Under the pieces are notes generated by a model that saw nothing but the letters and a program-made list of their open reading frames with translations, did no database searches and was not told the DNA's origin. The position numbers and the translations under genes are program-made. Below are positions 2,680 through 48,028 of a DNA stretch of 64,000 nt, one piece after another (the stretch's first letter is position 1; every line of letters begins with the position of its first letter). The stretch is from Sandaracinus sp. (GTDB taxonomy: Bacteria; Myxococcota_A; Polyangia; Polyangiales; Houyiibacteriaceae), in contig PABA01000214.1 of the NCBI GenBank assembly GCA_002699025.1, positions 1 to 64,000 of the forward strand, read 5' to 3'.

Positions 2680-4526
2680 CGATCCCCGCGCGGCTCCTCG
2701 CGGCCGCCGCGCTGCTGGTGGCGCTGGTCGCCCTCGGCTGCGGCGACGACGGCCCGCCCGTCGACGCGCGCGCCCCCTCGATCCTCTCCGTCCGGGCGAC
2801 CACGCCCATGACGCAGGGGACGGCCCTCGGCGTGACCGTCGCGGACGTGGACGCCGCCGGGGACGACCTCCGCCTCGAGGTCTCGCCGCCGGACGACGGC
2901 CCCTTCGCCCTCTCCCCCGAGCGCCCGCTCGGTGAGGGCGAGCTCTTCTTCCCGCTCGACGCCCGCCTCGTCGGCGCCCTCGGCCCCGGCCGGCATCCGG
3001 TCGACCTCGTGCTCGCCGGCGCGGACGCCGAGAGCGAGCCCTACCCCTACTTCCTCGACCTCACGGACGCCCTCCCGATCGCCCTGACCCGCGGCCCGAG
3101 CGGCGACGTGCATCGCAACGAGGTCGCCGTGCTCGAGGGCGACGGCTTCCTCGAGGAGCGCGAGGGCACGGTCGAGGCGCGCTTCGTCGGCACCTTCACG
3201 CCGGGCGAGGGCGCCGCGAGCGACGTCGACGCGTCGCTCCCGGTCGAGCTCGCCGAGCGCGGCGATCGGAGCCGCGGCCTGGTCACGCTCGGCGCCGAGC
3301 TCGGGGGCGTCGGCCCGGGCACCTTCGAGGGCACGCTCCAGCTCGCCTCGGTCCTCGCCGCGAGCGGCGCCCGCACCGAGTCCGATCCCCTGGACCTCAC
3401 CCTCGCCTTCCTCCCGCCGGAGGTCTTCGGCGTCGACCCGGAGACGGTCAGCCTCGAGCAGATCGTGCGCGTCCGCGGCGCCGGCTTCCTCGGCGGCGAC
3501 GACGGCACGACCTCCCTCCTCGCAGCCGGCTCCTTCACCCCCGAGGCCGGCGTCAGCCAGCCGGTCCCCGAGAGCGAGCTCATCCTCGCCTTCGTCTCCG
3601 GCAGCGAGGTCGCCGGCCCCATCCGCGCCATGGAGGTCGGCGGCTCCCTCGTCTCCGAGCTCTTCGGCGCCGCCCGCGGCCGCTTCGAGGGCACGCTCAC
3701 GCCCCTCCTCCGCACCGGCGAGGGCAACTTCGAGGGGGCGCCGGCGCCGATCACGCTCACGCTCGGGCCCCTCGTGCAGGTGGTCTGGGTGCGCTTCCTC
3801 CCGGGCTTCTACGACAGCCTCGCCCGCTTCGGCCTCGCCGCCTCCGCGGGCGTCATCGAGGAGCGCATCGCCGCGCGCATCGAGAGCATCTACGCCGACT
3901 GGAACGTGGACGTGCGCCTCGAGCGCCCGACCGACTTCTCCGCCTCCGGCTACGCGACGGTCGAAGTCGGCGGCCCGGACCCGAACGGCCGCGGCCTCTT
4001 CGGCTACGACAACACGCCCGGCAAGGACGTGGGCAACGTGCGCCTCTTCGACGCCATCGGCGGCGCCAACGCCGAGACGCAGGAGGACGGCTACCCGGGC
4101 TTCGGCGGCGTCTTCGTCGAGTCCCTCTTCGGCTTCTCGGCGCACCCGCCGGAGGAGCTCGACGGCGCCGGCCCGGACCCGGACCCGCTCTTCGACGAGA
4201 TCTTCGACCCGGTGCGCGACGAGTCGGCCACGCTCGCGGAGGTGCGCGGCGAGGGCGAGCGGGCGGCCTCCGTGAACCGCGCCATCGACGCCCTCGCCTC
4301 GGTCGTCGGCGAGACCGCCGCCCACGAGCTCGGACACAGCCTCGGCCTCGCCGACCCCTACGGCTCGAGCACGGTCTTCCACAACCCCGGCGACAGCCCC
4401 GGCTGCCTCATGGACTCGGGCAGCGTGCGCCCCTTCGGCGAGCGCGCGAGCCAGCCGGGCTTCGCGGACACGCACCTCTGCCGGGACGCCCCCGGCTACC
4501 TCGACGCGATCCTCCCGCGCGAGTGA
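2661..4526 (+). CDS. Metzincin-like zinc metalloprotease lipoprotein
   Basis: A 621-residue lipoprotein with signal MRPRLLTIPARLLAAA and a lipobox ending LVALGC. Residues ~30-380 form repeated beta-rich segments in which the phrases 'FEGTLxL' and 'ExRFVGTFTP' recur, suggesting duplicated IPT/Ig-like domains. Near the C-terminus it carries HELGHSLGLAD (H555, E556, H559, D565), which fits the zinc-binding HExxHxxGxxH/D metzincin signature. It is followed by CLMDSG, a plausible Met-turn. The ATG at 2661 lies inside the end of the preceding lipoprotein gene, and it is the only start that places a signal peptide first; the longer open frame upstream is a shadow. Family-level function is extracellular proteolysis; the substrate is unknown. 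Confidence 0.85.
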   Translation: MRPRLLTIPARLLAAAALLVALVALGCGDDGPPVDARAPSILSVRATTPMTQGTALGVTVADVDAAGDDLRLEVSPPDDGPFALSPERPLGEGELFFPLDARLVGALGPGRHPVDLVLAGADAESEPYPYFLDLTDALPIALTRGPSGDVHRNEVAVLEGDGFLEEREGTVEARFVGTFTPGEGAASDVDASLPVELAERGDRSRGLVTLGAELGGVGPGTFEGTLQLASVLAASGARTESDPLDLTLAFLPPEVFGVDPETVSLEQIVRVRGAGFLGGDDGTTSLLAAGSFTPEAGVSQPVPESELILAFVSGSEVAGPIRAMEVGGSLVSELFGAARGRFEGTLTPLLRTGEGNFEGAPAPITLTLGPLVQVVWVRFLPGFYDSLARFGLAASAGVIEERIAARIESIYADWNVDVRLERPTDFSASGYATVEVGGPDPNGRGLFGYDNTPGKDVGNVRLFDAIGGANAETQEDGYPGFGGVFVESLFGFSAHPPEELDGAGPDPDPLFDEIFDPVRDESATLAEVRGEGERAASVNRAIDALASVVGETAAHELGHSLGLADPYGSSTVFHNPGDSPGCLMDSGSVRPFGERASQPGFADTHLCRDAPGYLDAILPRE

Positions 4527-4780: not shown

Positions 4781-7243
4781 GTGCGCCTCGCCCTCGTGAT
4801 CGCGTTCGTCCTCGCGGCCCTCGCCTCCCCGGCCCGGGCCCAGCTCCGCCGCGACACCCGCGGCGCGCCCCTCCCGGCCGTCTCCACGGCCGCCCCGCGC
4901 GGCGCCTTCGCCCTCGAGGCCAACCCGGCCGCCCTCGCCTACCTCCCGGGCTGGGAGGTCGCCTGGGTGCACGCGGAGGCCCACGGCGCCGACCGGCTGC
5001 CCGACGAAGGCGACAGCCTCTACGCCGCGACCCCCTTGCCCTTCCGCCTCGCGGCCGCCGCGAGCGCCGACTGGGTGCGCCCCGAGAACACCGGCGAGGC
5101 GGAGCGCGGGCGCTTCTCGCTCGGGCTCGCCTGGGCCCGGAGCCGGCACCTCGCCGTCGGCGGCGCCGTCCGCTTCTTCGGCTCGGACGATCCGGTGGGC
5201 GGCGTCGCGACCGTCGACCTCGGCGCCACCTTCCGCCCGGCGCCCTTCCTCGCCATGGGCGTCGTCGTCCACGACGTGCTCGGCCCGCCCGGCCTGGTCG
5301 GCGGCGACGCGATCCCCGCGACCTTCGACGCCGGCGTGCAGCTCCGCCCCTTCGCGACGGACCAGCTCCTCTTCGAGGTCATGACCGCCGTCGACACGGA
5401 CGGCCGGGTGGGCGTCCGGGGGCTGGCGGGCGTGGAGGTGCCGCGCGTCGGGCGCCTCTACGGCGCCCTCGAGGGCGACGACCTCCGGGGCGACGGGGAG
5501 CTCCGCGCCCTGGTCGGCCTCGACCTCCGCTGGGATCGCTTCACGGTCGGGGGCGGCGCCCTCCTCGGCGACGGGCTCGGCGCCGGCTGGCTGGCGAGCG
5601 CCCGCGTGGCCGAGGTCGGGGCCGAGGCCGCCCTGCCCTCGCGCGGCTGGGTCGACGAGATCCGCGTGCGCGGCGTCGGGGCGCGCACGCTCCTCGGCCT
5701 CCTCGCGCGCCTCGACCGCGACCGCCACACGCCCGGCGTCCGCGGCGTGCTCCTCACGCTCCGCGAGACCGACATGGGGCTCGCCTACGCGCAGGAGCTC
5801 CGCCAGGCCATCGCCGCGCTCCGCGCCGCCGGCAAGCCCGTCGTCTGCCACCTCGACGGCGCCAGCGGCAGCGAGATCTACGCCTGCGCCGCCGCCGACC
5901 GCACCTACCTCGACCCGGCCGGCTTCGTGCGCCTGCTGGGCCCCTCGCTCGACGTCACGCTCTACGGCGAGCTCCTCCGGGACCTCGGCGTGCGGACCGA
6001 CTTCATCCGCATCGGCCGCTTCAAGAGCGCCGTCGAGAGCTACGCCAACGACGCCATGAGCGACCCGGCGCGGGAGGCCCGCGAGACCTTCCTCGACGAC
6101 GTCTGGGCGCGCCTGCTCCGGGACCTCGCCGCCGATCGGGAGACCGAGCCCGAGCGCGTCGCCCGCTGGATCGACGAGGGCCCCTACCTCGCCGAGGAGG
6201 CCTCGGCCCTCGGCCTGACCACCGGCGAGTCCGACGCCCGCCGCCTCGGCGACGCCCTCGAGGAGCTCACGGGCACGCGCCGCCGCCGCCGCGAGCCCGA
6301 ACGCACGGCGCCGACCCACTTCGGCCGGCCGCGCCGCCTCGGCGTGATCGTGGTCGACGGCGCGATGGTCGACGGCGAGAACGTCGACCTGCCCATCGTG
6401 GAGATCCACCAGAGCGGCGGCGAGACCGTGGCGAAGGCCATCGACGCCATGGCGGCGGATCGCTCCATCGCCGCCATCGTGCTCCGCGTCGACAGCCCGG
6501 GCGGCTCCGCCCTCGCGTCCGACCAGATCTGGCGCGCCCTCCGCCGCGCCCGGCGCCGAAAGCCCGTCATCGCCTCCATGGGCGCCATGGCGGCGAGCGG
6601 CGGCTACTACGTCGCGAGCGCCGCCGACGAGATCTACGCGGACCCCTCGACGCTCACGGGCTCCATCGGCGTCTTCTTCGGCAAGGTCGACGCCGAGCCC
6701 CTGGCCGAGCGCCTCGGCGTCGAGGTGACGCAGCTGAGCCGCGGCGCGCACGCCGGGGCCACCTCCCTCTTCCGCCCCTTCACCCCCGAGGAGCGCGCGA
6801 GCCTCGCGGATCTCGTCCGCCAGTCCTACCGGCTCTTCCTCCGCCGCGTGGCCGAAGGCCGCGGCATGTCCGTGCGCGAGGTCGACGCCGCCGGGCGCGG
6901 GCGCATCTGGAGCGGCGACGCCGCCCGCGAGCTCGGCCTCGTCGATCACCTCGGCGGCTTCCTCGCGGCCGTGGAGCGCGCCCGCGAGCTCGCGCGGCTC
7001 CCTGCCGACGCCCCCATCGTCGTGGCGCCCGACCGCCCCCGCTCGCTCGCCGACTACGTGCTCGGCCCGCTCGGGCTCCCCACGGGCCGCGTCCAGGGCG
7101 GCCTCGCGACGCCCGACGCCTCGGGAGGGCCCCTCCCGATCCCGCCTCGGCTCCGCCACGCGCTCGTCCTCGGCGCCGCGCTCGGCGGGACCCGCGAGGG
7201 CGCGCCCATGGCCATGCTCCCCGCCGCGATCACGCTCGAGTGA
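4781..7243 (+). CDS. SppA-type (S49) signal peptide peptidase with N-terminal barrel-like domain
   Basis: 820 residues with a cleavable signal peptide (MRLALVIAFVLAALASPARA). Residues ~25-290 alternate short amphipathic strands and contain 'LEANPAALAYLPGWEV', which resembles outer-membrane PorV/OmpX-like or FadL-like barrel families. Residues ~300-790 contain tandem S49 protease domains. The putative catalytic lysine is K415 in GRFKSA and the nucleophile is S606 in MAASGGYY. The 191-residue spacing matches full-length SppA (K209/S409 in E. coli, from knowledge of the family). SppA normally degrades leftover signal peptides in the inner membrane, so fusion to a barrel-like domain with an export signal implies a periplasmic or outer-membrane location, which is inference. 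The GTG at 4781 is chosen because it starts the signal peptide. Confidence 0.85.
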   Translation: MRLALVIAFVLAALASPARAQLRRDTRGAPLPAVSTAAPRGAFALEANPAALAYLPGWEVAWVHAEAHGADRLPDEGDSLYAATPLPFRLAAAASADWVRPENTGEAERGRFSLGLAWARSRHLAVGGAVRFFGSDDPVGGVATVDLGATFRPAPFLAMGVVVHDVLGPPGLVGGDAIPATFDAGVQLRPFATDQLLFEVMTAVDTDGRVGVRGLAGVEVPRVGRLYGALEGDDLRGDGELRALVGLDLRWDRFTVGGGALLGDGLGAGWLASARVAEVGAEAALPSRGWVDEIRVRGVGARTLLGLLARLDRDRHTPGVRGVLLTLRETDMGLAYAQELRQAIAALRAAGKPVVCHLDGASGSEIYACAAADRTYLDPAGFVRLLGPSLDVTLYGELLRDLGVRTDFIRIGRFKSAVESYANDAMSDPAREARETFLDDVWARLLRDLAADRETEPERVARWIDEGPYLAEEASALGLTTGESDARRLGDALEELTGTRRRRREPERTAPTHFGRPRRLGVIVVDGAMVDGENVDLPIVEIHQSGGETVAKAIDAMAADRSIAAIVLRVDSPGGSALASDQIWRALRRARRRKPVIASMGAMAASGGYYVASAADEIYADPSTLTGSIGVFFGKVDAEPLAERLGVEVTQLSRGAHAGATSLFRPFTPEERASLADLVRQSYRLFLRRVAEGRGMSVREVDAAGRGRIWSGDAARELGLVDHLGGFLAAVERARELARLPADAPIVVAPDRPRSLADYVLGPLGLPTGRVQGGLATPDASGGPLPIPPRLRHALVLGAALGGTREGAPMAMLPAAITLE

Positions 7244-9113: not shown

Positions 9114-9129
9114 GGCCGGCCCCCGCCAC

Positions 9130-9380
9130 ACGGTCCGCACTGTCGCCTCCCCGCAAGGTCGCCTCCCGCAAGGTCGCCTCCCACACGATCCGCACTGTCG
9201 CCTCCCGCAAGGTCGCCTCCCGCAAGGTCGCCTCCCGCGCGATCGCCCCGCCGCGCCGTCGCCTCCCTCACGGTCGCCTCCCGCACCAGCCGCCCGGTCG
9301 CCTCCCGCAAGGTCGCCTCCCGCAAGGTCGCCTCCCGCGCGATCGCCCCGCCGCACCGTCGCCTCCCGCACCAGCCGCCT
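9130..9380. repeat. Intergenic minisatellite, 15-nt unit
   Basis: Tandem and interrupted copies of GCAAGGTCGCCTCCC fill the gap after the VOC gene. A higher-order ~100-bp duplication (around 9216-9270 and 9316-9370) carries the same GCGCGATCGCCCCGCCGC spacer. There are no unique spacers and no palindromic repeat, so it is not a CRISPR array. The rest of the gap to 9561 shows nothing recognisable. Confidence 0.85.
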
Positions 9381-9561
9381 CCGACTCCGCCCGACGCAGC
9401 GCGCCCGCCGCGGTGCACGCGTCGTCCGCCCCGACGGGAACCTTCCGAGACCGCCGTCCGACCGAGAGGCTCCTCACAGCGGGCCAACTCCATGGAATCA
9501 CCCACCCTTTCCAGCCCACCGTCGGCTCCTTCCGGGCGTGACGCCGCCACCCCGCATGCGC

Positions 9562-11928: not shown

Positions 11929-12017
11929 ACGGGTCTCCAGCCCACCGTCGCGACCCGCCGATCTGAAATCTCGTTCGTTCCACCCACGCCACCCGTTTGC
12001 GGGGAGGCGGGGCGTGG

Positions 12018-12023
12018 TAAGCT
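12018..12023 (+). promoter_or_regulatory. -10-like TAAGCT, leadered promoter
   Basis: TAAGCT lies ~41 nt before the kinase ATG at 12065, which suggests a short 5' leader. In this case the hexamer is not adjacent to the start. Confidence 0.35.
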
Positions 12024-12064
12024 GCGCGCCGGGGGAGCGCCCACCGAACGGGCGACACCACGTC

Positions 12065-13534
12065 ATGGGCCAGGGCCTCGCACCGAACGACCCGCTCGAG
12101 GAGCGGGATCCGATGATCGGCCGCACCGTCGCGGACCGCTTCATCGTGCAAGCTCGCATCGGCTCGGGCGGGATGGGCACGGTCTACAAGGCCGTGCAGA
12201 CGGGCCTGAACCGCCCCGTGGCCCTGAAGCTGCTCAAGGAAGAGGTCAGCTGGGACCCGGACACGATCACGCGCTTCCACCGCGAGGCGAAGGCCATGAG
12301 CCTGCTCGTGCACCCGAACACGGTGCGCGTCTTCGACTTCGGCCAGACCCGCGAGGGGATCCTCTACCTGGCCATGGAGCTGCTCGAGGGCGAGCTCCTC
12401 ACGCAGAAGCTCGAGCGCGAGGGGGCGCTGGCGCCGGACGAGGCGATCGGCGTGGGCGGCCAGATCCTCGCGAGCCTCCACGAGGCGCACGCCAAGGGGA
12501 TCATCCACCGCGACCTCAAGCCCGACAACATCTACCTCGCGGACGTCGAGGGGCACTCGGAGCCGGTCGTGAAGGTCCTCGACTTCGGCATCGCCAAGGT
12601 CTTCGAGGGCGAGAACCAGTTCGATCAGCTCGAGACCCAGGCCGGCACGGTCTTCGGGACCCCGCGCTACATGTCCCCGGAGCAGGCGCAGGGGAAGAGC
12701 ATGGACGCGCGCTCCGACCTCTACAGCGTCGGCGTGCTGGTCTACCAGCTGCTCACGGGCGTCGCGCCTTTCCGCGACGAGGACGCCGTCGTGGTGATGG
12801 CGAAGCACATCCGCGACAAGCCCGTCCCGCCGGCGAAGGCCGCGCCGACGCGCCGCATCCCGCTCAGCCTGAGCCGCACGGTGATGCGCGCCCTCGAGAA
12901 GAGCCCGGAGAAACGCTACCAGGACGCCGACGCCTTCCACACGGCGCTCGAGGCGTGCCTGCCGGAGGCCGCCGGAGCGAGCGGGCGCGCGCAGACCGGC
13001 ATCTTCTGGCGTGCGCAGTCCGCGGCGGGGGGCCGGGGACTCTGGATCGCGGCGGGCGTGCTGCTCGTGCTGATGCTGGCCGGCGGCCTGGCGTTCGCGT
13101 TCGGCGGCGAGGACGAGCCGGAGCCGGTGGCCGAGGCGCCCACGCCCTCGGCGCGGGTCGACGCCATGGAGCTCGAGGTCGAGGCCGAGGAGCCCCCGCG
13201 CATCGGCACGGCCGAGCTCGACAGCGACCCGACGGGGGCGCGCGTCTACCACCAGGGCCGCTTCCTCGGCGAGACCCCCCTGCGGCACGACATGCCCGAG
13301 GCGGAGTCGATGACCGTCGAGGTGCGCCGCGCGGGCTACGAGACGGTCGAGGCCGTCCTCACCCCGACCGAGCCGCGGCTCGTGCTCCTCCACCGGACCG
13401 AGCCCGAAACGACGCCGATGCGGGCGAGCCGCATGACCCCGCAGGTCAGCGCCATGCGGCCGACCATGCAGGCGGCGCCGACCATGGAGCCCTCGGCCAT
13501 GGAAGAAGAGCCGCACTACACGCGCTTCCGCTGA
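12065..13534 (+). CDS. Membrane Ser/Thr protein kinase with PEGA domain and Met-rich tail
   Basis: 489 residues. The Hanks-type kinase domain (~24-285) has a glycine loop GSGGMG, catalytic K55, H148-R-D150 in HRDLKPDN, D173 in DFG, and an activation segment ending RYMSPEQ, so it should be active. One transmembrane helix (~325-347) puts the C-terminus outside the cytoplasm. There is a PEGA domain (~380-440, 'GTAELDSDPTGARVYHQGRFLGETPL') and then a tail with recurrent Met (TPMRASRM, SAMRPTM, APTMEPSAM). ATG 12065 is chosen over the upstream GTG at 12014 because a -10-like element sits between them. Signal and substrates are unknown. Confidence 0.9.
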   Translation: MGQGLAPNDPLEERDPMIGRTVADRFIVQARIGSGGMGTVYKAVQTGLNRPVALKLLKEEVSWDPDTITRFHREAKAMSLLVHPNTVRVFDFGQTREGILYLAMELLEGELLTQKLEREGALAPDEAIGVGGQILASLHEAHAKGIIHRDLKPDNIYLADVEGHSEPVVKVLDFGIAKVFEGENQFDQLETQAGTVFGTPRYMSPEQAQGKSMDARSDLYSVGVLVYQLLTGVAPFRDEDAVVVMAKHIRDKPVPPAKAAPTRRIPLSLSRTVMRALEKSPEKRYQDADAFHTALEACLPEAAGASGRAQTGIFWRAQSAAGGRGLWIAAGVLLVLMLAGGLAFAFGGEDEPEPVAEAPTPSARVDAMELEVEAEEPPRIGTAELDSDPTGARVYHQGRFLGETPLRHDMPEAESMTVEVRRAGYETVEAVLTPTEPRLVLLHRTEPETTPMRASRMTPQVSAMRPTMQAAPTMEPSAMEEEPHYTRFR

Positions 13535-13637
13535 GCGCCGCCCCGCCCCGCGCCTCGTCGCGCCCCGCGCATCTTCCGAGCGCTCCCCACCGCCTCTTCC
13601 TTCGCCTTCCGATTGGCGAGCGGCGCTCGGAGTGATT

Positions 13638-13653
13638 ATGAGGGGCCCCTCAT
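13638..13653. promoter_or_regulatory. Perfect 16-bp palindrome over the mutS2 start
   Basis: ATGAGGGGCCCCTCAT is a perfect palindrome whose last two bases are the AT of the mutS2 start codon. It also overlaps a -10-like TTATGA. It could be an operator or an mRNA hairpin; this is inference. Confidence 0.5.
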
Positions 13654-16048
13654 GACCCCGAAGGACCCCGCCAAGACCCTCGAGGACCTCGAGTGGGCAC
13701 GCATCGTCGACGCCGTGGGCGCCCGATGCCGGGGTCCGCTCGGCGCGCGCATGAATCTGCCGCTCGCGACGACCCGCGAGGGCGCCGCCCGGGCGCTCGC
13801 CGAGACGCGCGAGGTGATGGAGCTGCTCGCCGAGGACGAGGTCCTCCCCCTCGATGGCGTGCAGGAGCTCCGCGGCCACCTCCAGCGCCTCTCCCGTCAG
13901 GGCGACCTCGACGCCGGCGCGCTCCGCGACGTGATGAAGACGCTCGCCGCCGCGCGCTCGCTCCGGCTCTTCCTCGCGAAGCGCAAGGAGCGCATGCCCG
14001 CGCTCCACTCGGCCTGCGCCTTCGACCCGAGCCTCGACCGGCTCCACGAGGAGCTCTCCGTCGCCATCGATCCCGACGGCACGTTGAGCGACCACGCCAG
14101 CCCCGAGCTCCGCCGGCTCCGGGGCGAGACCTCCAACCTCCGCGAGCGCCTCGTCCGCCGCCTCGACCAGATCCTGATCGAGCGCGCGGACATCCTCCAG
14201 GACAGCTTCTACACGCTCCGCGAGGGCCGCTACGTCGTCCCCGTCCGCCGCGACGCGCACGAGAAGTTCGAGGGCATCGTCCACGGCACGAGCTCGAGCG
14301 GGCAGAGCATCTTCGTCGAGCCGCGCGCCCTCGTCGCGCAGGGCAACCGGCTGAAGATGGCCCAGGCCGAGCTCGAGCGGGAGGAGGCGCGGATCCTCGC
14401 CGAGCTCTCGGAGCTCGTGCGCGAGCGCCTGGCGAGCCTCCGCGCCGCCTGCGACGCCCTCGACCACGCCGACCGGCGCCAGGCCTCCGCGCGCTTCGGC
14501 CGGGACCTCGACGCCTCCGTGCTGCCCCTGGCCGAGGGGGCGAAGGCGACGCTGAAGACGGCCCGGCACCCGCTCCTGCTCCTCGACGAGGACCACGAGG
14601 TCGTGCCGAGCGACCTCTCGGTCGAGGCCGGGCGGGGCCTCGTCATCAGCGGCCCGAACGCCGGCGGCAAGACGGTCGCGCTCAAGAACCTCGGGCTCGC
14701 GGCGCTGATGCAGCGGGCCGGCCTGCCCATCCCGGCGGCGCCCGGCAGCTCCTGCGGGTTCTTCGCGCCCGTGCTCACGGACGTCGGCGACGAGCAGTCC
14801 ATCGAGAAGAACCTCTCGACCTTCTCGGCGCACGTGACCAACCTCGCGCGCATCCTGAAGGCGACGGGCTCCGGGAGCCTGGTGCTCCTCGACGAGCTCG
14901 CTGGGGGTACCGATCCGCAGGAGGGCGCGGCCCTCGCCTGCGCCCTCGTCGACACCTTCGTTCGGCGCGGCGCGGCCCTCGGCGTGACGACCCACTACGA
15001 GCCCCTGAAGGCCATGGCGGCCAAGGACGAGCGCCTCGAGAACGCGGCCGTGGGCTTCGACGTCGAGAAGATGGAGCCGACCTTCGAGCTCCTCCACGGC
15101 GTGCCCGGCGCCTCGAGCGCGCTCGCCGTCGCGCGGCGCTTCGGGATCCCGGACGAGGTCCTGGCGACGGCGCGGGGCGTGCTGCCCGAGCAGAGCCGCA
15201 CCTTCGACGAGCTCGTGCGGCAGCTCGAGGATCAGCGGCGGGAGCTGGCCCTGGCGAAGGCGGCGGTGGCCGAGACGGAGCGCGAGCTCCTGACCGAGCG
15301 CGCGAAGCTGAAGGAGCGGCGGGCGGCGCTCGAGAAGAAGAAGGAGAAGCTCCTCGACGGGGAAGCGAAGAAGCTCCGCGACATGCTCCGGCGGGCGCGC
15401 GAGGACGTGCGGCAGGCGCGGCGGCTCATCAAGAAGCGCCCGGACGAGAACACGGCCGACGAGGTGCGGCGGCGCATCGAGGAGGCGGCCAAGGTCGCAG
15501 CGCGTCGACCGGCGGATCAGCTCCCGGAGGTCCGGGGCGAGCCGATCGCGCCCGAGGCGCTGCACCTCGGCGTGAAGGTCTGGGTGCCGCGGCTGCGGGC
15601 CGTCGCCGAGGTCGTGGAAGGCCCGGTGCGCGATCAGGTGCGCGTCGCGGCCGGCGCGCTCCGGCTCTGGGTCGACGTCGCCGATCTGACGGCGCCCCCG
15701 AAGGGCACGACGAAGCAGGGCGCGGGCAAGAGCCCGGCGGCGAGCGAGGGGCCGGCACCGACGCCCCAGGCGCCCGCGACGCCGGCCAAGCCGGTGCAGA
15801 CGCCGGACAACACGCTGGACGTGCGCGGCCTGCGCGTGGACGAGGCGCTGGCCATGGCCGAGAGCTTCCTCGATCGAATGTACGGGCAGAACGAGCCGAC
15901 GGCCTTCATCGTGCACGGCATCGGCTCGGGCGCGCTCCGGGACGCCATCCGCGGCCAGCTGCGCCAGGACAGCACCTACGTGCAGTCCTTCCGCGGCGGC
16001 ACGCGCGAAGAGGGCGGCGACCGCACGACCATCGTCACGCTCCGGTAG
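13652..16048 (+). CDS. mutS2: Endonuclease MutS2
   Basis: 798 residues, the normal MutS2 size. There is no N-terminal mismatch-recognition domain of MutS1. A core/lever region is followed by the ATPase with Walker A GPNAGGKT (334-341), Walker B 'LVLLDELAGGTDPQEG', and the 'VTTHYEPLKAMA' H-loop. A long charged coiled coil covers ~500-620. The C-terminal Smr nuclease domain (~715-798) has LDVRGLR in place of the usual LDxHGLR, and HGIGSGALR. MutS2 acts on branched DNA to limit recombination, and some members act on collided ribosomes (family knowledge). The loss of the LDxH histidine may alter nuclease activity. The ATG at 13652 overlaps a palindrome. Confidence 0.93.
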   Translation: MTPKDPAKTLEDLEWARIVDAVGARCRGPLGARMNLPLATTREGAARALAETREVMELLAEDEVLPLDGVQELRGHLQRLSRQGDLDAGALRDVMKTLAAARSLRLFLAKRKERMPALHSACAFDPSLDRLHEELSVAIDPDGTLSDHASPELRRLRGETSNLRERLVRRLDQILIERADILQDSFYTLREGRYVVPVRRDAHEKFEGIVHGTSSSGQSIFVEPRALVAQGNRLKMAQAELEREEARILAELSELVRERLASLRAACDALDHADRRQASARFGRDLDASVLPLAEGAKATLKTARHPLLLLDEDHEVVPSDLSVEAGRGLVISGPNAGGKTVALKNLGLAALMQRAGLPIPAAPGSSCGFFAPVLTDVGDEQSIEKNLSTFSAHVTNLARILKATGSGSLVLLDELAGGTDPQEGAALACALVDTFVRRGAALGVTTHYEPLKAMAAKDERLENAAVGFDVEKMEPTFELLHGVPGASSALAVARRFGIPDEVLATARGVLPEQSRTFDELVRQLEDQRRELALAKAAVAETERELLTERAKLKERRAALEKKKEKLLDGEAKKLRDMLRRAREDVRQARRLIKKRPDENTADEVRRRIEEAAKVAARRPADQLPEVRGEPIAPEALHLGVKVWVPRLRAVAEVVEGPVRDQVRVAAGALRLWVDVADLTAPPKGTTKQGAGKSPAASEGPAPTPQAPATPAKPVQTPDNTLDVRGLRVDEALAMAESFLDRMYGQNEPTAFIVHGIGSGALRDAIRGQLRQDSTYVQSFRGGTREEGGDRTTIVTLR

Positions 16049-16398
16049 AGCCCGCTCCGCGTTCGTCTCCCGCGCGCTCGTCTGCCTGACGTGCGACCCA
16101 GCCACCCGACCGACCAGGGGCGCGGTTCGAGATCAGCACGGCTCGAGGTCAGCGCGGTTCGAGATCAGCACGGCTCGATGTCAGCGCCGTTCGAGATCAG
16201 CGCGGCTCGAGATCAGCGCGGTTCGAGATCAGCGCGGCTCGAGATCAGCGCGGTTCGAGATCAGCGCGGTTCGAGGCCAGCGCCGTTCGAGATCAACGCC
16301 GTTCCAGGGACCGGAGGGAGCCCGGGACGAGACGCCGGATCCCCTCCTGCGGGATGCGCAGAATCCCGCTCCAGCGGCGGCCGGGAGGCCGTCGCTCG
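16049..16398. other. Convergent intergenic region between mutS2 and a kinase
   Basis: This 350-bp gap separates the ends of two convergent genes. It is dominated by the 16-nt minisatellite annotated separately; no gene or obvious intrinsic terminator was found. Confidence 0.6.
16122..16297. repeat. Intergenic minisatellite, 11 copies of a 16-nt unit
   Basis: Eleven contiguous copies of GCGGTTCGAGATCAGC, with variation mainly at positions 1, 3, 5, 10 and 11. The units carry a TCGA core and alternate T/C at one position. There are no spacers. The array lies between the 3' ends of mutS2 and the convergent kinase. Confidence 0.92.
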
Positions 16399-41726: not shown

Positions 41727-43748
41727 TCACATCGGGCCGACGGGGATCTCGATCTCCGGCGGCACCAGGAAGTAGACCTGCCGGCTGTCGAGCGGCGAGC
41801 CATCGCCGAAGACCGTCAGCCGCGCCTCGAAGACGAGCGGCGCCGTGCCGGGCTCGACGATGTCGTTCGTGATCGGCACCACGTCCCAGCACACGCTCGT
41901 GCCCGGCGTCAGGCTCGGGAAGGCGTCGTCGTAGGTGTCGCCGTCCGTGTCCTCGGTCGGGCTCACCATGGAGCAGCCCGCCGGGTCCCCGCTGGTGTTC
42001 ACCTCGAGGTAGTCGATGAACTGCAGCGCGTCGCCGTCGTCGCCGGGCTCGTCGGTCGCCTCGATGGTCACGCGGATGGGCACGCCGTTCACGATCTCGT
42101 TGATCGCGTCGGTCACCGCCGTGGTCACGCCCGCCCCGTCCCCGTCGTAGACCAGCGGCGCTCCGCCCGAGTCGAGCGAGTCGCTGTTGTTCGCGATGGC
42201 CCGCAGGTTCGCCCGCGGCTCGTGGCCGCTGTCGGCGTCGACCCCGACGAAGGTGATGCCCTGGTCGAGCAAGCGCATGCCCGCCGCGCCCGGGCTGTCG
42301 GCGCTGCAGTCGCCGCACTCGTCCGGCTCGTCGGTGATCGTCACCAGGATGCGCACGGCCTCCATGCGGTAGGCCGGACAGCCGATGCCGCCGCCGGCGC
42401 ACATCGCCCCCGAGCAGACGCTCGGATCGGCCACGCAGGCCACGGACTCGTAGAGCGACTCCCGGCCGCCGTCACCACTGGCTGTTGCCGGGATGCGCGA
42501 GCGGGTGACGTCGGGGTCGTTCTGAAGCGAGAGGCGGTTTCGATAGCTGCTGGCGAACCCCTCGTAGGTTCCGATGCCCGTGAAGACCGAGGCCACGCAG
42601 GAGGACATGGTCGGGTCCTCGATGCAGCGCCCAGCGAGGCTGCAGACCTGGCCGCCGGCGCACTCGTCGTCGCCCATGCAGGCGGTGCCGAAGTCCTCGC
42701 AGACCAGGTTCGTGATGATGTTCCGCACCGCGTCGCGCATCGCCGCGATCTCGCCACTCATCGAGCCCGTCGTGTCGAAGAGAAAGTACACGTCGGCGAT
42801 CTGGATGTTCGTGCGGAACTGGAGCGTGTCCCGCTCCGGCATCGGCGCTTCCTCGAAGGGCACGACGAAGACGAAGTCGCCGCGCGTCCGCGGGTTGTCG
42901 CCCATGTCCAGCGGGTCCGTCCCCGCGCCCACCTCGATCAGGTCGCTCACCCCGTCCATGTCCGTGTCCGTGAGCAGCGGGTCCGTGCCCGCCTCCCGCT
43001 CGGCCTGATCCGAGATGCCGTCGTTGTCCGAGTCCGGATCCCGGAAGTCCGGGATCATGTCCATGTCCGTGTCGACGGGCGGCGTGAAGATGTCGAGGTC
43101 GCCGGCCTCCTCGCTGTCCGGGATGCCGTCGTTGTCCGAGTCGACGTCCTGCCAGTCCTCGAGCCCGTCCATGTCCGTGTCGACGTCGCGCTCGTCCCCG
43201 TCGAGGATCGCGTCGTCGTCGCTGTCCGGATCCTTGAAGTCCGGGATCCCGTCCCCGTCCGTGTCCACGCCCGGCCCGCCACCCGCGAGCTCCGAGGCGT
43301 CGACCACGCGGTCGTTGTCGTCGTCCGTGTCCGCGAAGTCGGGGCGGCCGTCCCCGTCCGTGTCCGCCGTGGACTCGTCCGCGTCCGGGATGCCGTTCCC
43401 GTCCGAGTCCTCGTCCTGGAAGTCCGGCACCGTGTCGCCGTCCGAGTCGCGCGGCGGCGTGCTCGGCAGATCGTCGCCGGCCTCGACCGAGTCCGGGATG
43501 CCGTCCCCGTCCGAGTCGTCGTCCAGGTAGTCGGGCGTGCCGTCGCCGTCCGTATCCGTCCCCGCGCGGCGCCCCTCGTTCACGTCCGCGATACCGTCCA
43601 TGTCGGTGTCGGTCGTGTCCGAGACGCCCCCGTCCGAGGGCCCGGCGTCGTCCCGCATGGGCGTCCCGCCCCCGCCAGGCGAACACGCCTCACCCAGCCC
43701 GAGAGAACACACGAGTGCCCAGAGGCACACCCAACGCCACGAAGCCAT
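41727..43748 (-). CDS. VWA-domain lipoprotein with thrombospondin type 3-like Ca-binding repeats
   Basis: 673 residues. A signal-like N-terminus (MASWRWVCLWALVCSLGLGEAC) suggests a lipoprotein, though the lipobox is not ideal. Residues ~35-330 hold around a dozen 'DTDxDGxPDxxDxDSDGDGIPD' repeats typical of thrombospondin-3/EF-like Ca binding. A von Willebrand A domain follows, with a MIDAS motif DTTGSMS, and a cysteine-rich insert (CEDFGTACMGDDECAGGQVC). Such proteins are usually surface adhesins. The ATG is 7 nt after TACGCT. It is the left neighbour of the AT-rich island, and its promoter region is duplicated inside that island. Confidence 0.88.
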   Translation of the reverse strand: MASWRWVCLWALVCSLGLGEACSPGGGGTPMRDDAGPSDGGVSDTTDTDMDGIADVNEGRRAGTDTDGDGTPDYLDDDSDGDGIPDSVEAGDDLPSTPPRDSDGDTVPDFQDEDSDGNGIPDADESTADTDGDGRPDFADTDDDNDRVVDASELAGGGPGVDTDGDGIPDFKDPDSDDDAILDGDERDVDTDMDGLEDWQDVDSDNDGIPDSEEAGDLDIFTPPVDTDMDMIPDFRDPDSDNDGISDQAEREAGTDPLLTDTDMDGVSDLIEVGAGTDPLDMGDNPRTRGDFVFVVPFEEAPMPERDTLQFRTNIQIADVYFLFDTTGSMSGEIAAMRDAVRNIITNLVCEDFGTACMGDDECAGGQVCSLAGRCIEDPTMSSCVASVFTGIGTYEGFASSYRNRLSLQNDPDVTRSRIPATASGDGGRESLYESVACVADPSVCSGAMCAGGGIGCPAYRMEAVRILVTITDEPDECGDCSADSPGAAGMRLLDQGITFVGVDADSGHEPRANLRAIANNSDSLDSGGAPLVYDGDGAGVTTAVTDAINEIVNGVPIRVTIEATDEPGDDGDALQFIDYLEVNTSGDPAGCSMVSPTEDTDGDTYDDAFPSLTPGTSVCWDVVPITNDIVEPGTAPLVFEARLTVFGDGSPLDSRQVYFLVPPEIEIPVGPM

Positions 43749-43857
43749 CGGACGCAGCGTAGACGAGCCCAGCGGACGAACCCAACCGTGAGCCATTGCA
43801 CGCCGTGCGCTTGCTCGCGGCATGGAGTGCAACGCCTACACGCACCCACGTGCACGC
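43736..43857. repeat. Duplicated ~120-bp segment, copy A
   Basis: It covers the first codons and the promoter region of the VWA gene plus ~90 bp upstream. It is about 85% identical by eye to 45770-45889 inside the island. Confidence 0.85.
43756..43761 (-). promoter_or_regulatory. -10-like TACGCT, predicted leaderless start
   Basis: TACGCT on the minus strand ends 7 nt before the VWA ATG. In duplicate copy B it reads TACGTT, 7 nt before a TTG. Confidence 0.45.
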
Positions 43858-43929: not shown

Positions 43930-44139
43930 TCAGCCAACTATCTCGATCCCGATGAGTGTATCCCCTTCGCCAAAATCGAGGTAGATGTCCGGCCCCTCGT
44001 AATCGCCGACAAGATCATGCAGTCTCACGGTTCGCTTCACAACGCCCGGGGCGGACCTCGGATGCCCAGGTAGCCTCAGATAGGCAACATCCTTGTCATC
44101 CTCGCTGACCTTGAGATTGAATCCGTGTTCTTGTGACAT
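43930..44139 (-). CDS. DUF2283-like small protein, copy 1
   Basis: 69 residues starting MSQEHGFNLKVSEDDKDVAYLRL. The 'AYLRLPGHP...VVKRTVRLHDLV...IYLDFGEGDTLIGIEIVG' layout is that of DUF2283, short beta-rich proteins of unknown function often found near toxin-antitoxin or immunity genes. It starts after AAGG with a 6-nt spacer. A copy with about seven substitutions lies at 47616-47825. Base composition is clearly lower in G+C than outside the island. Confidence 0.7.
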   Translation of the reverse strand: MSQEHGFNLKVSEDDKDVAYLRLPGHPRSAPGVVKRTVRLHDLVGDYEGPDIYLDFGEGDTLIGIEIVG

Positions 44140-44142
44140 TGG

Positions 44143-44307
44143 CTACCTTCGTACGAGAACGGCCTTGAGCTTCGCAGTGCCATTCTTGGCGAGCTGGTAG
44201 ACGGCCAAACCGTTGTTTCCTACTGGCACGAGGAATCGGCCAGCGTTTGCCGTGTCAACCAGCGTTCCCGCAGGAAACGCGCGGGACTGTGTGATCTGCC
44301 TGGTCAA
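44143..44307 (-). CDS. Unrecognised 54-residue protein or toxin-tail remnant
   Basis: Reads from a TTG that overlaps the barstar gene's TGA and ends 3 nt before the DUF2283 ATG. The product is beta-rich: 'FPAGTLVDTANAGRFLVP', 'GNNGLAVYQLAKNGTAKLKAVLVRR'. It could be a real coupled gene or the tail of a lost toxin. The same tail, with a 5-nt deletion that shifts the frame, lies before the second DUF2283 copy, so this tail and DUF2283 were duplicated together. Confidence 0.45.
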   Translation of the reverse strand: MTRQITQSRAFPAGTLVDTANAGRFLVPVGNNGLAVYQLAKNGTAKLKAVLVRR

Positions 44308-44684
44308 GCCTCGTAGCACAGTACCAGCCTGCTCCGCGGAACTGATGCCTCTGGAAACACGACTCGTAACTCGTGGTCCTCCTCGGGCTCCCAATCTCGT
44401 GCGGCATCCGCGAGGACGCCGAGGTACGTCGAGAGGACGGTCTCGGGCATGGGGGGAAGATCGTCGTGGACGAGAATGATCCGCCTCTCCTCGACCCAAT
44501 GAAAGTCCCGGAGGCAGTCGGAGAGCGCGTCCCAGTTCCGACCGAAATAGCCCGGAAGGATGAGCGCCTGTTGGAGAGAATCGAACAGTTGCTCTCGGTT
44601 CGCAATGCCCTGAGGCAGGCGTGCAACGAACGCCCCCGAGGCGGCGTCCTCACTCAATCCGAACGTGAATCCAGACGTGTCCAT
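44304..44684 (-). CDS. Barstar-family ribonuclease inhibitor
   Basis: 126 residues. 'QQALILPGYFGRNWDALSDCLRDFHWVEERRIILVHDDLP' is the central barstar signature (LPxYFGxNWDALxDCL). Barstars are tight inhibitors of barnase-type RNases and serve as immunity proteins against polymorphic-toxin RNase tips. No barnase-like gene lies adjacent, so it is an orphan in this window. The start ATG has no clear Shine-Dalgarno sequence. Confidence 0.85.
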   Translation of the reverse strand: MDTSGFTFGLSEDAASGAFVARLPQGIANREQLFDSLQQALILPGYFGRNWDALSDCLRDFHWVEERRIILVHDDLPPMPETVLSTYLGVLADAARDWEPEEDHELRVVFPEASVPRSRLVLCYEA

Positions 44685-44719
44685 CTCGCAAGCTGCCAGG
44701 CTCAGGCCTCAGGACTCAG

Positions 44720-45281
44720 GCTCGGCACCCCGCGTGCGCCAGCTCACATCTCGTCCCAGAAGAGCGTTGGATCCCAGAGCCCCCCTGTGTCGAAGAAATG
44801 GAGCATCGCTTGCCGTGCACTCTGTTCATCCACCACCAGGGAACTGGGGTATGAAGAGCCCTGGCCACAGACCACCCACTCGCTGCCGTCCTCCGACTTG
44901 GTTGGATCACAGAGGACTTTGTTCCGATCCCCCAGGTATATGCTGACCACGTACCTACCGTCCCCCCCGCCGATGTACATCTGTCTCTCCTCGTCAACCT
45001 CCAACCCCAGCAATGTGTAGCGCTTGCCATCGAGACGTGAGAATGCTTCGAGAACCCGTTGCCTCGTCGGCGACTCAGCGTCCAACCCGCCGCCACGCGC
45101 ATCATCCTCACACAGCGATTTGATACCACTCAAGGCAGCCCTCCAAGTGACCCACCAACAACGTGACCGTCCAATAGGCGCACAAACACATCGACTCCTT
45201 CGATCCCGAGTGCCTTCCGAGCGCGTTCTGAGGCGCGCCCCATTGCGACTCGCGTCTCGACGGGCTCACTGACCAAGCGGC
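44720..45281. repeat. Duplicated ~560-bp cassette, copy 1
   Basis: Covers the Imm1-like gene and most of the small upstream gene. It is ~90% identical by eye to 45980-46556, offset about 1.28 kb in the same orientation. Confidence 0.85.
44744..45133 (-). CDS. Imm1-like immunity protein, intact copy
   Basis: 129 residues from a TTG start that overlaps the end of the upstream small gene. 'LDGKRYTLLGLEVDEERQMYIGGGDGRYVVSIYLGD', then 'SEWVVCGQGSSYPSSLVVDEQSARQAMLHFFDTGGLWDPTLFWDEM' follows the Imm1 pattern, in which a final 'A..A...F..tG..p....W' is characteristic; Imm1 proteins counter nucleic-acid deaminase and other toxin tips. Family assignment is by pattern only. The glycine-coding run contains seven C on the plus strand, one fewer than the frameshifted copy. 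Confidence 0.65.
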   Translation of the reverse strand: MSGIKSLCEDDARGGGLDAESPTRQRVLEAFSRLDGKRYTLLGLEVDEERQMYIGGGDGRYVVSIYLGDRNKVLCDPTKSEDGSEWVVCGQGSSYPSSLVVDEQSARQAMLHFFDTGGLWDPTLFWDEM

Positions 45282-45297
45282 ACAGCTCGTCAACCAT
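45108..45297 (-). pseudogene. Small unknown gene, copy 1, frameshifted
   Basis: From ATG 45297 the reading frame encodes 'MVDELCRLVSEPVETRVAMG' and 'SERARKALGIEGVDVFVRLLDG'. Relative to copy 2 it then has one extra base near 45160, which moves the end of the protein (TLLVGHLEGCLEWYQIA) into another frame and gives a premature end at 45130. No family is recognised. It sits directly in front of the Imm1-like gene with overlapping ends, the usual place for a toxin tail or a partner immunity gene. Confidence 0.6.
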
Positions 45298-45314
45298 GGG
45301 GTGAGTTTGGGCGT

Positions 45315-45689
45315 CTACTCGACATGACCGCAGAAACGGTTCCATTCGTCGATGTATGCTTTCGCTGCTGGACCGGCTTGGTCGAGAATCCAACGAGATG
45401 TCGGATTCCTATCGATCGCCGACACGACAGCTTCGAGGAAGCCCGTGGCGATTGCGTCCTTCTCGTACTCGGTTCCTTCACGAAGGAGGACCTCGATTCG
45501 CTCGAAGACCTGAGCCGCCTGTTCTGAGGTGGGATTGGCCTTTTCGACGAACGATCGGCCAATTGCGCTCATTGAGGTGTTGATTGGGGGAGGATCGGGC
45601 TGCCACTCCTCGACCAGCTCCTCGATGGTCTCGTGGAGTGCTGCGATTCCCTGCGCGAGCGCTGTCACTGCCTTGGGAACTTCCGTCAC
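45315..45689 (-). CDS. Unrecognised immunity-like protein
   Basis: 124 residues from GTG 45689, which has a strong GGAGGG Shine-Dalgarno sequence at a 5-nt spacing. All-helical and acidic: 'ALHETIEELVEEWQPDPPPINTSMSAIG', 'TEYEKDAIATGFLEAVVSAID', 'WILDQAGPAAKAYIDEWNRF'. The 'EKDAIATGFLEA' phrase recurs in small proteins of polymorphic-toxin loci, so immunity is my best guess. An alternative TTG at 45782, 7 nt after a TACGTT hexamer in the duplicated segment, would give an in-frame 31-residue extension. Confidence 0.65.
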   Translation of the reverse strand: MTEVPKAVTALAQGIAALHETIEELVEEWQPDPPPINTSMSAIGRSFVEKANPTSEQAAQVFERIEVLLREGTEYEKDAIATGFLEAVVSAIDRNPTSRWILDQAGPAAKAYIDEWNRFCGHVE

Positions 45690-45769
45690 CAATCCCTCCG
45701 AGCGCGTTCTATGGATCGCGCATGATGTCTTCCGCGGCGGCGCGGTCGCCGGTCCCACGCCCGAGGACC

Positions 45770-45889
45770 GCCACGAAGCCAACGTGCGCAACGTAGACGA
45801 GCTCAGTGGACGAACCCAACCGTGAGCCATTGCACGCCGTGCGCTCGATCGCGGCGTGCAGTGCAACGCTTACACGCAACCACGTGCAC
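45770..45889. repeat. Duplicated ~120-bp segment, copy B
   Basis: Copy of the VWA gene's promoter and first codons. The ATG is changed to TTG, and homology stops after about five codons. The surrounding 45690-46019 has no other gene. Confidence 0.8.
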
Positions 45890-45979
45890 TTCATTCGTTG
45901 ACGCCGCCTAGACGCCCTCGGCGACCGGCGCGAAACAGGCCGTAGCGACCTCGAGCCCAACACCTGGTCCGTCAGGCTC

Positions 45980-46556
45980 AGGTCTCAGGCAACAGGTTCG
46001 GCATCCCATGTGCGCCGGCTCACATCTCGTCCCAGAAGAGCGTTGGATCCCAGAGCCCCCCGGTGTCGAAGAAATTGAGCATCGCTTGCCGTGCACTCTG
46101 TTCATCCACCACCATGGAACTGGGGTATGAAGAGCCCTGGCCACAGACCACCCACTCGCTGTCGTCCTCCGACTTGGTTGGATCACAGAGCACCTTGTTC
46201 CGGTCCCCCAGGAATATGCTGACCACATACCTACCGTCCCCCCCCGCCGACAAACATCTGTCTCTCCTCGTGAACCTCCAACCCCAGGCAGGTGTAGCGC
46301 TTGCCATCGAGACGTGAGAATGCTTCGAGAACCCGTTGCCTCGTCGGCGACTCGGCTGACAACCCGCCGCCACGCGTATCATCCTCAGCCAGCGATTTGA
46401 TACCACTCAAGGCAGCCCTCCAAGTGACCCACTAACAATGTACCGTTCGAAAGGCGCACAAACACATCTACTCCTTCGATCCCGAGTGCCCTCCGAGCGC
46501 GCTCTGAGGCGGGCCCCATTGCGACTCGCGTCTCGACGGGTTCCCTGACCGAGTGG
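45980..46556. repeat. Duplicated ~570-bp cassette, copy 2
   Basis: Second copy of the Imm1-like/small-gene cassette, in the same orientation as copy 1. Confidence 0.85.
46020..46406 (-). pseudogene. Imm1-like immunity gene, frameshifted copy
   Basis: The C-terminal ~75 residues ('GRYVVSIFLGDRNKVLCDPTK...LWDPTLFWDEM') are nearly identical to the intact copy. The N-terminal part from TTG 46406 is in a different frame because a poly-C run at about 46238-46245 has eight C instead of seven. This may be a true inactivation, a phase-variable slip site, or a base-calling error; other substitutions between the copies show they are distinct loci. Confidence 0.75.
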
Positions 46557-46648
46557 AGGCGGATGCCCTCGTCACCGCTCCGTGCAGCGGACGCGGTTCG
46601 CGACCGAGCGCCTGATCCCGATGCACCCGCCGCTTCACCAGTCGACAC
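46385..46648 (-). CDS. Small unknown gene, copy 2 (full-length tail)
   Basis: 87 residues from a GTG that overlaps the end of the DUF4265 gene. The last ~55 residues ('EPVETRVAMGPASERARRAL', 'GIEGVDVFVRLSNGTLLVGH', 'LEGCLEWYQIAG') are the unbroken version of copy 1. The first ~32 residues are Ala/Gly/Ser/Arg-rich and look unrelated, as if the duplicated cassette was joined here. The true start could be downstream. The TGA overlaps the frameshifted Imm1 copy's TTG. No family is recognised. Confidence 0.5.
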   Translation of the reverse strand: MSTGEAAGASGSGARSRTASAARSGDEGIRLHSVREPVETRVAMGPASERARRALGIEGVDVFVRLSNGTLLVGHLEGCLEWYQIAG

Positions 46649-47084
46649 TCGCCTCCTCGAATTCGATCGCCCCCTTTGCTTCTTGACTCGTCAGCCAACC
46701 AACAACCGCTTCAGGAGCAACATCCGGCGGCACGTCGACAGCTATGAGCCGTGCGAGATGGCTACGCTCGACCTCGCACCCCAAGCGGATCAGCTCGTCA
46801 ATCACAGAGGACACCCTCTGCTCGTCGAAGATGATGACTCTCACCGTCCGATGACCGTGCCACCGGATGTGCTTCCGGTACCACAGCTCACCATCCACTT
46901 CGACTGCAGACACCTCATCCCCGAAGCCGAGCCCCTTGACGAAGAACGGGATGTTCAGGATCCGATAAATCCCCTCGCACACCTCTTCCGCCCACACACT
47001 CTCGACCTCCGCAGGCGGCCACAACTCGTCCTCCTTCTCGAGCCTGAAAAGAATCTTCACATCACCGCTTCTCACGCTTGGCAT
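46635..47084 (-). CDS. DUF4265 protein
   Basis: 149 residues. 'KILFRLEKEDELWPPAEVESVWAEEV', 'YRILNIPFFVKGLGFGDEVSAVEVDGELWY' and 'WHGHRTVRVIIFD' follow DUF4265, a small soluble family common in toxin-immunity neighbourhoods, whose function is not established. The ATG overlaps the stop of the upstream PH-like gene, so the two are coupled. Confidence 0.75.
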   Translation of the reverse strand: MPSVRSGDVKILFRLEKEDELWPPAEVESVWAEEVCEGIYRILNIPFFVKGLGFGDEVSAVEVDGELWYRKHIRWHGHRTVRVIIFDEQRVSSVIDELIRLGCEVERSHLARLIAVDVPPDVAPEAVVGWLTSQEAKGAIEFEEASVDW

Positions 47085-47569
47085 CGGTTGGACATGTGCT
47101 GTGGGACGTGCAAGTGGGCGCTAGGCCCGTTACTGGAAGAGGCGGCCACGAGTTTCATCACGTTCCAGAAACCGAAGAATGGCTTCCCGGGTTCCAGATC
47201 GAGCTCGTAGGTGTCCCCAGAGCGCGTCTCGATGATCAGCTCTCGCAGCTCTCGCTTGCTCCGCGGCCGCCGCAGCATCGAAGGGCCGAGGTCCACAGTC
47301 GCATCCCGGATGTCGTGGAGGTCAATCGAGTGAACGGGGCCATTCTGCGCGAAGAGCAGTCGGGCGCTGGTGAGGAGCACCCATTCCTTCTGACTGGTGA
47401 AGCTGGCGATGGCCATGACCTCGTCGTCGCCGACTTCAGCGACTTGCCGGAGGCGCTCTTGGATCTCGGCGCTCCAGTCATCGAAAGGCTTGGTCCTGAC
47501 GCCCGTAGCTCCCCTGGCTGAGAAGTCTCGAATCCATCGAGAGACTCTGAATGCCGGATCGACGACCAT
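47072..47569 (-). CDS. Bacterial PH-like (YokE/bPH) domain protein
   Basis: 165 residues. The middle 'DDEVMAIASFTSQKEWVLLTSARLLFAQNGPVHSIDLHDIRDATVD' and 'LIIETRSGDTYELDLEPGKPFFGFWNVMKLV' give the beta-strand order of bacterial PH-like domains, in which 'W.LLTs.RLl' is typical. No signal or membrane segment. The ATG lies 7 nt after TAGGGT on the minus strand, so even this island gene has the leaderless-type start. It is first in a coupled pair with the DUF4265 gene. Confidence 0.7.
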   Translation of the reverse strand: MVVDPAFRVSRWIRDFSARGATGVRTKPFDDWSAEIQERLRQVAEVGDDEVMAIASFTSQKEWVLLTSARLLFAQNGPVHSIDLHDIRDATVDLGPSMLRRPRSKRELRELIIETRSGDTYELDLEPGKPFFGFWNVMKLVAASSSNGPSAHLHVPQHMSNRCQA

Positions 47570-47576
47570 GCCAAAT

Positions 47577-47582
47577 ACCCTA
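47577..47582 (-). promoter_or_regulatory. -10-like TAGGGT, predicted leaderless start in the island
   Basis: TAGGGT on the minus strand ends 7 nt before the ATG at 47569. Confidence 0.5.
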
Positions 47583-47615
47583 AAGAGTGCTCATCTCGTT
47601 GCCGGCGCGGTGGCT

Positions 47616-47825
47616 TCAGCCAACTATCTCGATCCCGATGAGGGTATTCCCTTCGCCAAAATCGAGGTAGATGTCCGGCCCCTCGTAGTCGCCGACAAGA
47701 TCATGCAGTCTCACGGTTCGTTTCACAACGCCCGGGGCGGACCCTGGATGCCCAGGTAGCCTCAGATAGGCAACATCCTCGTCATCCTCGCTGACCTCGA
47801 GATCGAATCCGTGTTCTTGTGACAT
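47616..47825 (-). CDS. DUF2283-like small protein, copy 2
   Basis: 69 residues, differing from copy 1 at about seven positions (for example FDLEVSEDDED against FNLKVSEDDKD). It has an AGGGAG ribosome-binding site 6 nt before the ATG. It lies 3.7 kb from copy 1 in the same orientation and marks the right part of the island. Confidence 0.7.
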   Translation of the reverse strand: MSQEHGFDLEVSEDDEDVAYLRLPGHPGSAPGVVKRTVRLHDLVGDYEGPDIYLDFGEGNTLIGIEIVG

Positions 47826-48028
47826 TGGCTTCTCCCTATGAGAACGGTCTCGATTTTCAGGGTGCCTGGCGATCTGGTAGACGGCCATGCCGTTGGTGGG
47901 GTGACTAGCCAACGATGGGAGAATGACGCGCGCAAGCATCCTCCAGCAAGCTCCGGATCGAGATTCCCACTTCGAATCAACCGGTGAAGCGCGGCTCTGG
48001 CCTGTTCAAGGAGGTCGGCGCGCGACAT
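47826..48028 (-). pseudogene. Degenerate remnant upstream of DUF2283 copy 2
   Basis: The last ~60 nt match the tail of the 54-residue gene before DUF2283 copy 1 (NGMAVYQIA against NGLAVYQLA), but a 5-nt deletion throws the end out of frame. Further upstream, 'MSRADLLEQARAALHRLIRSG' does not match copy 1. No function can be inferred. Confidence 0.45.

Follow-up and report, generated by a model that had tools for sequence, protein, structure and literature searches.

A tandem S49 peptidase of the SppA type fused to a predicted FadL/PorV-like outer-membrane barrel in Myxococcota

Introduction

SppA is the inner-membrane signal-peptide peptidase of textbooks. The locus analysed here raised the question of where such an enzyme would sit when its protease half is preceded by what looks like an outer-membrane barrel. 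The initial annotation, made on a 64-kb stretch of DNA (the window) that belongs to a 105-kb contig of a 9.24 Mb genome, proposed that one reading frame joined a signal peptide and about 260 residues of barrel-like strands to two S49 domains with a Lys/Ser dyad, and that the barrel would place the peptidase in or at the outer membrane. It named neither the FadL/PorV-like character of the barrel nor the wide occurrence of the fusion in the phylum, nor the two further SppAs of the genome, whose N-termini are of other kinds.

Results

Gene and protein layout

The protein of 820 amino acids was encoded by a single ORF at positions 4781-7243 (+), with a GTG start and no internal stop, and its features are shown in Table 1. 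An alternative in-frame GTG upstream at 4523 would add 86 residues; we place the starts of the relatives at, or close to, the site that corresponds to 4781. A simple pattern for the SPI-like site (x-x-A/G-Q) was found in 28 of the 30 aligned relatives. Among named relatives, the nearest were a MAG of the Polyangiaceae (66%) and one of the Sandaracinaceae (48%), which makes this a myxococcal genome. The layout given in the initial annotation was borne out, as a signal peptide (residues 1-20) preceded about 265 residues of amphipathic strands (residues 21-285), and two S49 domains with the Lys415/Ser606 dyad were recovered by Pfam, NCBIfam and the alignment with 3bez. The conserved C-terminal end is not specific to the barrel form, since a similar end was found in the lipoprotein-like SppA of the same genome.

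Table 1 Features of the fusion gene and of the second SppA gene in the window
Feature	Position	Strand	Basis or remark
Signal peptide, residues 1-20	4781..4840	+	By eye; SPI-like site ARA/Q (slash marks cleavage), sequence ASPARA/Q
FadL/PorV-like outer-membrane beta-barrel domain (predicted), residues 21-285 (~265)	4841..5635	+	Profiles, model, alternation
NPA motif, residues 48-50	4922..4930	+	As in FadL family
First S49 domain, ~residues 291-490, with the general-base Lys	5651..6250	+	Pfam, NCBIfam, 3bez alignment
Cys356 and Cys369, putative disulphide	5846..5887	+	Conservation in relatives
Lys415 codon (dyad base)	6023..6025	+	E. coli SppA alignment, conservation
Second S49 domain, ~residues 519-740, with the nucleophile Ser	6335..7000	+	Pfam, NCBIfam, 3bez alignment
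Ser606 codon (nucleophile)	6596..6598	+	E. coli SppA alignment, conservation
C-terminal tail, conserved xALxP end	7001..7240	+	Alignment of relatives
Second, non-fused SppA, 568 aa	52147..53853	-	N-terminal hydrophobic stretch, without obvious signal peptide

Protease half

Searches of the protein families showed that PF01343 matched twice (6.8e-66; 221.4 bits, cut-off 24.9) and that TIGR00706 scored 219.2 bits, above its cut-off of 155.45, while the SppA 67K equivalog TIGR00705 fell just short (304.3 bits, cut-off 311.45). The alignment with E. coli SppA (3bez) spanned residues 317-741 and placed K415 and S606 on its KSAV and SGGY motifs. The dyad count started from 91 rows, of which 68 were kept as distinct; 62 of these had an N-terminal match. 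K415 was conserved in all of the distinct fusion rows (62/62), and S606 in 58 of the 59 rows that reached that position; the remaining row carried G, and three rows were cut. Since the dyad is kept across the fusions, the enzyme is quite probably active.

Cys356 and Cys369 were both invariant among 30 relatives, and each was found in 49 of the 62 fusions; the pair was absent from both other SppAs of the genome. A disulphide between them would fit an oxidising periplasm.

Sequence evidence for the barrel domain

The N-terminus of the window protein (residues 21-290) gave no Pfam or NCBIfam match. Single relatives (n=30) gave weak Pfam matches in this part, with Toluene_X in 2 and MipA, OMP_b-brl, Porin_4, TraF_2 and UPF0164 in 1 each, mostly outer-membrane families. 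For the FadL family (PF03349) there was no match of the window protein, and 2 of the 30 relatives matched weakly, below the gathering cut-off (best E 0.007); the PorV/PorQ family (NF033709) likewise gave none for the window protein and 2 of the 30 relatives (PorV_fam) below its cut-off (best E 0.15). A search of PDB sequences with the N-terminal profile yielded no barrel; the matches were ABC transporter chains alone, at E 0.6.

Comparison of profile with profile on hhalign connected the domain to FadL. The profile of 30 relatives matched a FadL profile of 20 proteins from related genomes at 95.8% (E 7e-9), and a wider profile of 38 sequences matched it at 97.6% (E 4e-12) over 236 columns. The controls scored 1.4 and 2.6% (reversed profiles), 0.1% (SppA half) and 0.3% (best of 20 column shuffles), and the barrel part without the domain's first 40 residues still reached 92.9%. 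The 30-relative alignments (A2 and A3) contained 30 of the fusions found, and the wider one (A7) contained 38 and left aside L138 and L139, two of a set of 24 distant rows; the FadL profile (A5) kept 20 of 30 fetched loci, incomplete or doubtful frames having been dropped. The NPA motif coincided with the NPA position in the FadL profile. Its N, P and A were invariant across the 20 FadL-family proteins, and in the 38 fusion N-termini P was invariant and N was conserved in at least 90%. At the level of sequence profiles, homology of the N-terminal domain to FadL barrels is clear.

The mean hydrophobic alternation was 2.27 over the 14 strands predicted by a low-confidence model. Windows of the SppA half gave 1.19 ± 0.23 with a maximum of 2.13 (2000 draws), and permuted columns gave 1.09 ± 0.21, with 0 of 2000 reaching 2.27. 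Column entropy was 1.91 at lumen-facing and 2.01 at lipid-facing positions, so that the inside was hardly more conserved. Charged lumen-facing residues such as R131, D146, R189 and R213 were at least 90% conserved in the 30 relatives. A chance arrangement or a misread frame was ruled out by the fusion in other genomes together with the strand alternation measured against the nulls.

Predicted structure

AlphaFold with three sequences modelled residues 21-290 with low confidence (pLDDT 55.7, pTM 0.53) as 13-14 strands with two short helices around NPA; two of the five models were near or above 50 (pLDDT). The full-length model, also made with three sequences, had a mean pLDDT of 37.5, and its strand pattern alone was looked at. 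Viral contigs were searched as a source of further sequences for folding, and none of their 39 loci reached the barrel part.

Foldseek placed the type IX secretion system (T9SS) chains 8gl6_F and 6h3i_F, which we take to be PorV, as the top matches of the barrel model. VIA-align ranked the FadL structures highest (for 3dwo, Z 16.7 with an rmsd of 4.8 across 231 residues), followed at about Z 15 by the Bacteroidota BAM-complex chains 9hjm_F and 9n2d_B, presumably BamG. Many other barrels were matched at Z 12-14, so assignment to the class of outer-membrane barrels is safer than assignment to a family. Structure prediction thus returned a weak model (pLDDT 55.7) whose best matches were FadL, BamG-type and PorV-type barrels. 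The barrel fold claimed at the outset agrees with the FadL profile homology and its controls, with NPA and with the strand model, weak as that model is, and the N-terminal domain very probably adopts a FadL/PorV-like barrel fold.

Spread of the fusion

The fusion was sought in other genomes by a search centred on the phylum Myxococcota, plus a scan of the genome contigs. A full-length match was found in 36 of 57 related genomes. Among the 21 without one, 19 belonged to genus g2, and of the remaining two, G008 ends at a contig end. Genus g2 lacked the full-length fusion even in genomes rated 100% complete, and the fusion is therefore dispensable there. The barrel profile matched 172 of 282 Myxococcota genomes and the wider profile 199 of 282, of which weak matches may be other FadL-like barrels.

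Barrel and protease lay in one ORF in 33 of the 37 regions fetched. Both halves were in one ORF in all of the first regions (21/21, one only with filters off), 20 of which had been chosen for long flanks. The 16 further regions were chosen because the frame was short, a contig ended there, the match was weak or an additional copy was present; they comprised 12 fused genes, 3 genes cut by contig ends and 1 standalone barrel (L128), which matched PorV_fam (3.2e-6) and BamG (3.7e-4), both below the cut-offs. The figures 36/57 and 33/37, and the 12/9 split of non-fused starts given below, are our own reading of the tables. The N-terminal part as a separate gene, which would have spoken against a genuine fusion, was thus seen in 1 of 37 regions, and that genome also had fused copies. 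Occurring as it does in a large part of the Myxococcota sampled, the fusion is no local accident.

The genome with the standalone barrel, G100, held several barrel copies, fused ones and one standalone (L128:5803-6909, L129:5483-8859), and a further barrel copy cut by the contig end lay directly downstream of a fused copy.

No constant partner gene of the fusion was found in the neighbourhoods of related genomes, where kinase, mutS2, TPR and UDPGP-type genes recurred near it in some relatives only. In the window, a Ser/Thr kinase-like gene (12014-13534, +) and a mutS2-like gene (13613-16048, +), both labelled by eye, lay near the fusion, and similar kinase-like and mutS2-like genes recurred beside it in several related genomes.

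The three SppAs of the genome

The genome contained three S49 proteins, including the fusion. The third SppA, on another contig (C67), had 586 amino acids and a lipobox-like start, without a barrel. Both non-fused SppAs were 40-41% identical to the fusion over the protease part. The fused SppA therefore comes in addition to two others and is not the only one of the genome.

A tree was generated from 81 S49 parts longer than 400 aa, with 20 non-fused regions picked by hand and the rows de-duplicated. The 60 fused and 21 non-fused rows were split by one branch (95/85), and the fused state required one change on the tree against 18.8 in shuffles. As the tree was unrooted, a single origin of the fusion is allowed and not proven. 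Inspected by eye, the 21 non-fused rows showed a lipobox-like cysteine in 12 and a hydrophobic stretch in 9.

Other features of the window

In a gene group at 44304-47084 (-), one gene matched Barstar (2.1e-20), two were Imm1-like with scores slightly below the cut-off, and DUF7674 and DUF4265 were also present; from these matches the group looks like a toxin-immunity gene set. The GC content was 0.604 in 44001-48000, and all other 4-kb blocks were above 0.71. The neighbouring ORFs 41727-43832 and 45315-45866 (-) had near-identical first stretches of about 30 residues (43735-43832 and 45768-45866), which suggests a duplicated piece of DNA, not coding sequence.

A tandem array between genes at 9126-9408 repeated a CCGCACGGTCGCCTC-like unit of 15 bases and also showed longer periods of 54 and 100 bases, and a similar-looking repeat was present ahead of the fusion gene in one related region (L009). 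In a second array, at 16120-16304, a unit of 16 bases (GCGCGGTTCGAGATCA) was repeated 11.6 times.

Discussion

The sequences show the architecture, the homology, the conservation and the intact dyad of the fusion; we infer its location, orientation, activity and substrate. The protein is likely an outer-membrane-anchored, periplasm-facing peptidase of the SppA type. That the protein sits in the outer membrane at all can be held with considerable confidence. The signal peptide would take the protein across the inner membrane through Sec, and the predicted FadL/PorV-like barrel of 14 strands, whose N-terminus contains NPA and may resemble a hatch, would insert into the outer membrane. Provided that the barrel has an even number of strands, like FadL, the chain would leave it on the periplasmic side; both barrel ends would then be in the periplasm, and a short linker would lead to two S49 domains lying beneath the inner leaflet. 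The barrel would thus replace the N-terminal transmembrane anchor of E. coli SppA. Such an enzyme may clip remnants of lipoproteins or misfolded barrels, alongside the two other SppAs of the cell. As its substrate class we tentatively name peptides at the outer membrane that are hydrophobic or lie near the membrane, with rather more doubt than belief.

FadL-family barrels transport hydrophobic molecules and BamG is a structural component of BAM, as described in PMC12611786, and a barrel of this kind could therefore serve as an anchor, a conduit or a scaffold. As a conduit, a FadL-like barrel would pass on to SppA hydrophobic peptides that stem, for instance, from lysed prey or the outer leaflet, or release cleaved ones. 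The same source describes how FadL-type barrels carry their cargo via a lateral opening, and the retained NPA and the conserved charged residues facing the lumen are consistent with this; however, lumen columns were barely more conserved than lipid-facing ones, the domain of about 265 residues is far shorter than FadL, and the barrel model is too weak for any opening to be seen. We consider a channel-coupled protease unlikely. Equally improbable is its wider form, an outer-membrane gate across Myxococcota in which hydrophobic peptides reach the SppA beneath, one of three with different membrane anchors, through a lateral channel of the FadL type, as is the extension that these peptides come from the outer leaflet or outside and serve proteolytic import or quality control, for which no described counterpart was found. 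An anchor is preferred over a conduit or a scaffold because conservation is not clearly higher on the lumen side.

A scaffold of the PorV/BamG kind would dock on BAM or a secretion system and bring a quality-control peptidase to it. The best Foldseek matches, the high rank of the BAM-complex chains and the sub-threshold matches of the standalone relative point this way, but with all of these barrels in a single fold class match rank says little about partners, and no neighbour gene was ever constant; such docking seems quite improbable. The low confidence of the model, and the window protein's want of a curated family match, would also suit a soluble beta-rich periplasmic domain, with the enzyme located elsewhere than in the outer membrane. 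Against this stand the strong inside/outside alternation and the FadL profile homology with clean controls, which make a soluble domain very improbable.

If the proposed outer-membrane anchoring is true, peptide clearance would be split by membrane, with three SppAs on different anchors in one cell, and an enzyme fusion would be added to the FadL-like barrels now known as parts of machines such as BAM. No account of a barrel-SppA fusion was found in open-licence PMC papers, as far as their text was available. The main text of a Myxococcus xanthus outer-membrane vesicle paper (PMC4158809), in the portion available, mentioned neither SppA nor S49, and the accessible part of a transport-protein survey (PMC3924187) mentioned neither these nor FadL. 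We rate the S49 membership as known, and the barrel fusion as a variant for which no report was found in those open-licence papers.

E. coli SppA is described in PMC9360617 as a tetramer with a periplasmic dyad, anchored in the inner membrane by a single transmembrane segment at its N-terminus. The fusion resembles it (3bez, 3bf0) in its tandem S49 domains and in the equal places of the Lys/Ser dyad, and would likewise be tethered to a membrane with catalysis on the periplasmic side; it differs in that its protease follows a signal peptide that looks cleavable and a barrel instead of that anchor. Tandem S49 domains are also common to the two other SppAs of the genome, which have a lipobox-like start or a hydrophobic stretch in place of the barrel. 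With FadL/TodX (PF03349) the fusion shares NPA and profile homology at 95.8-97.6%, and its weak model also shows short N-terminal helices and 13-14 strands, whereas its barrel is below Pfam detection and much shorter, and has a protease behind it. PorV serves an outer-membrane protein machine, the T9SS, as a standalone barrel without an enzyme. Like PorV and the BamG of the Bacteroidota BAM complex, both among its top fold matches, the fusion would have a FadL-type barrel; unlike them, it scores below the NCBIfam cut-offs and carries an enzyme.
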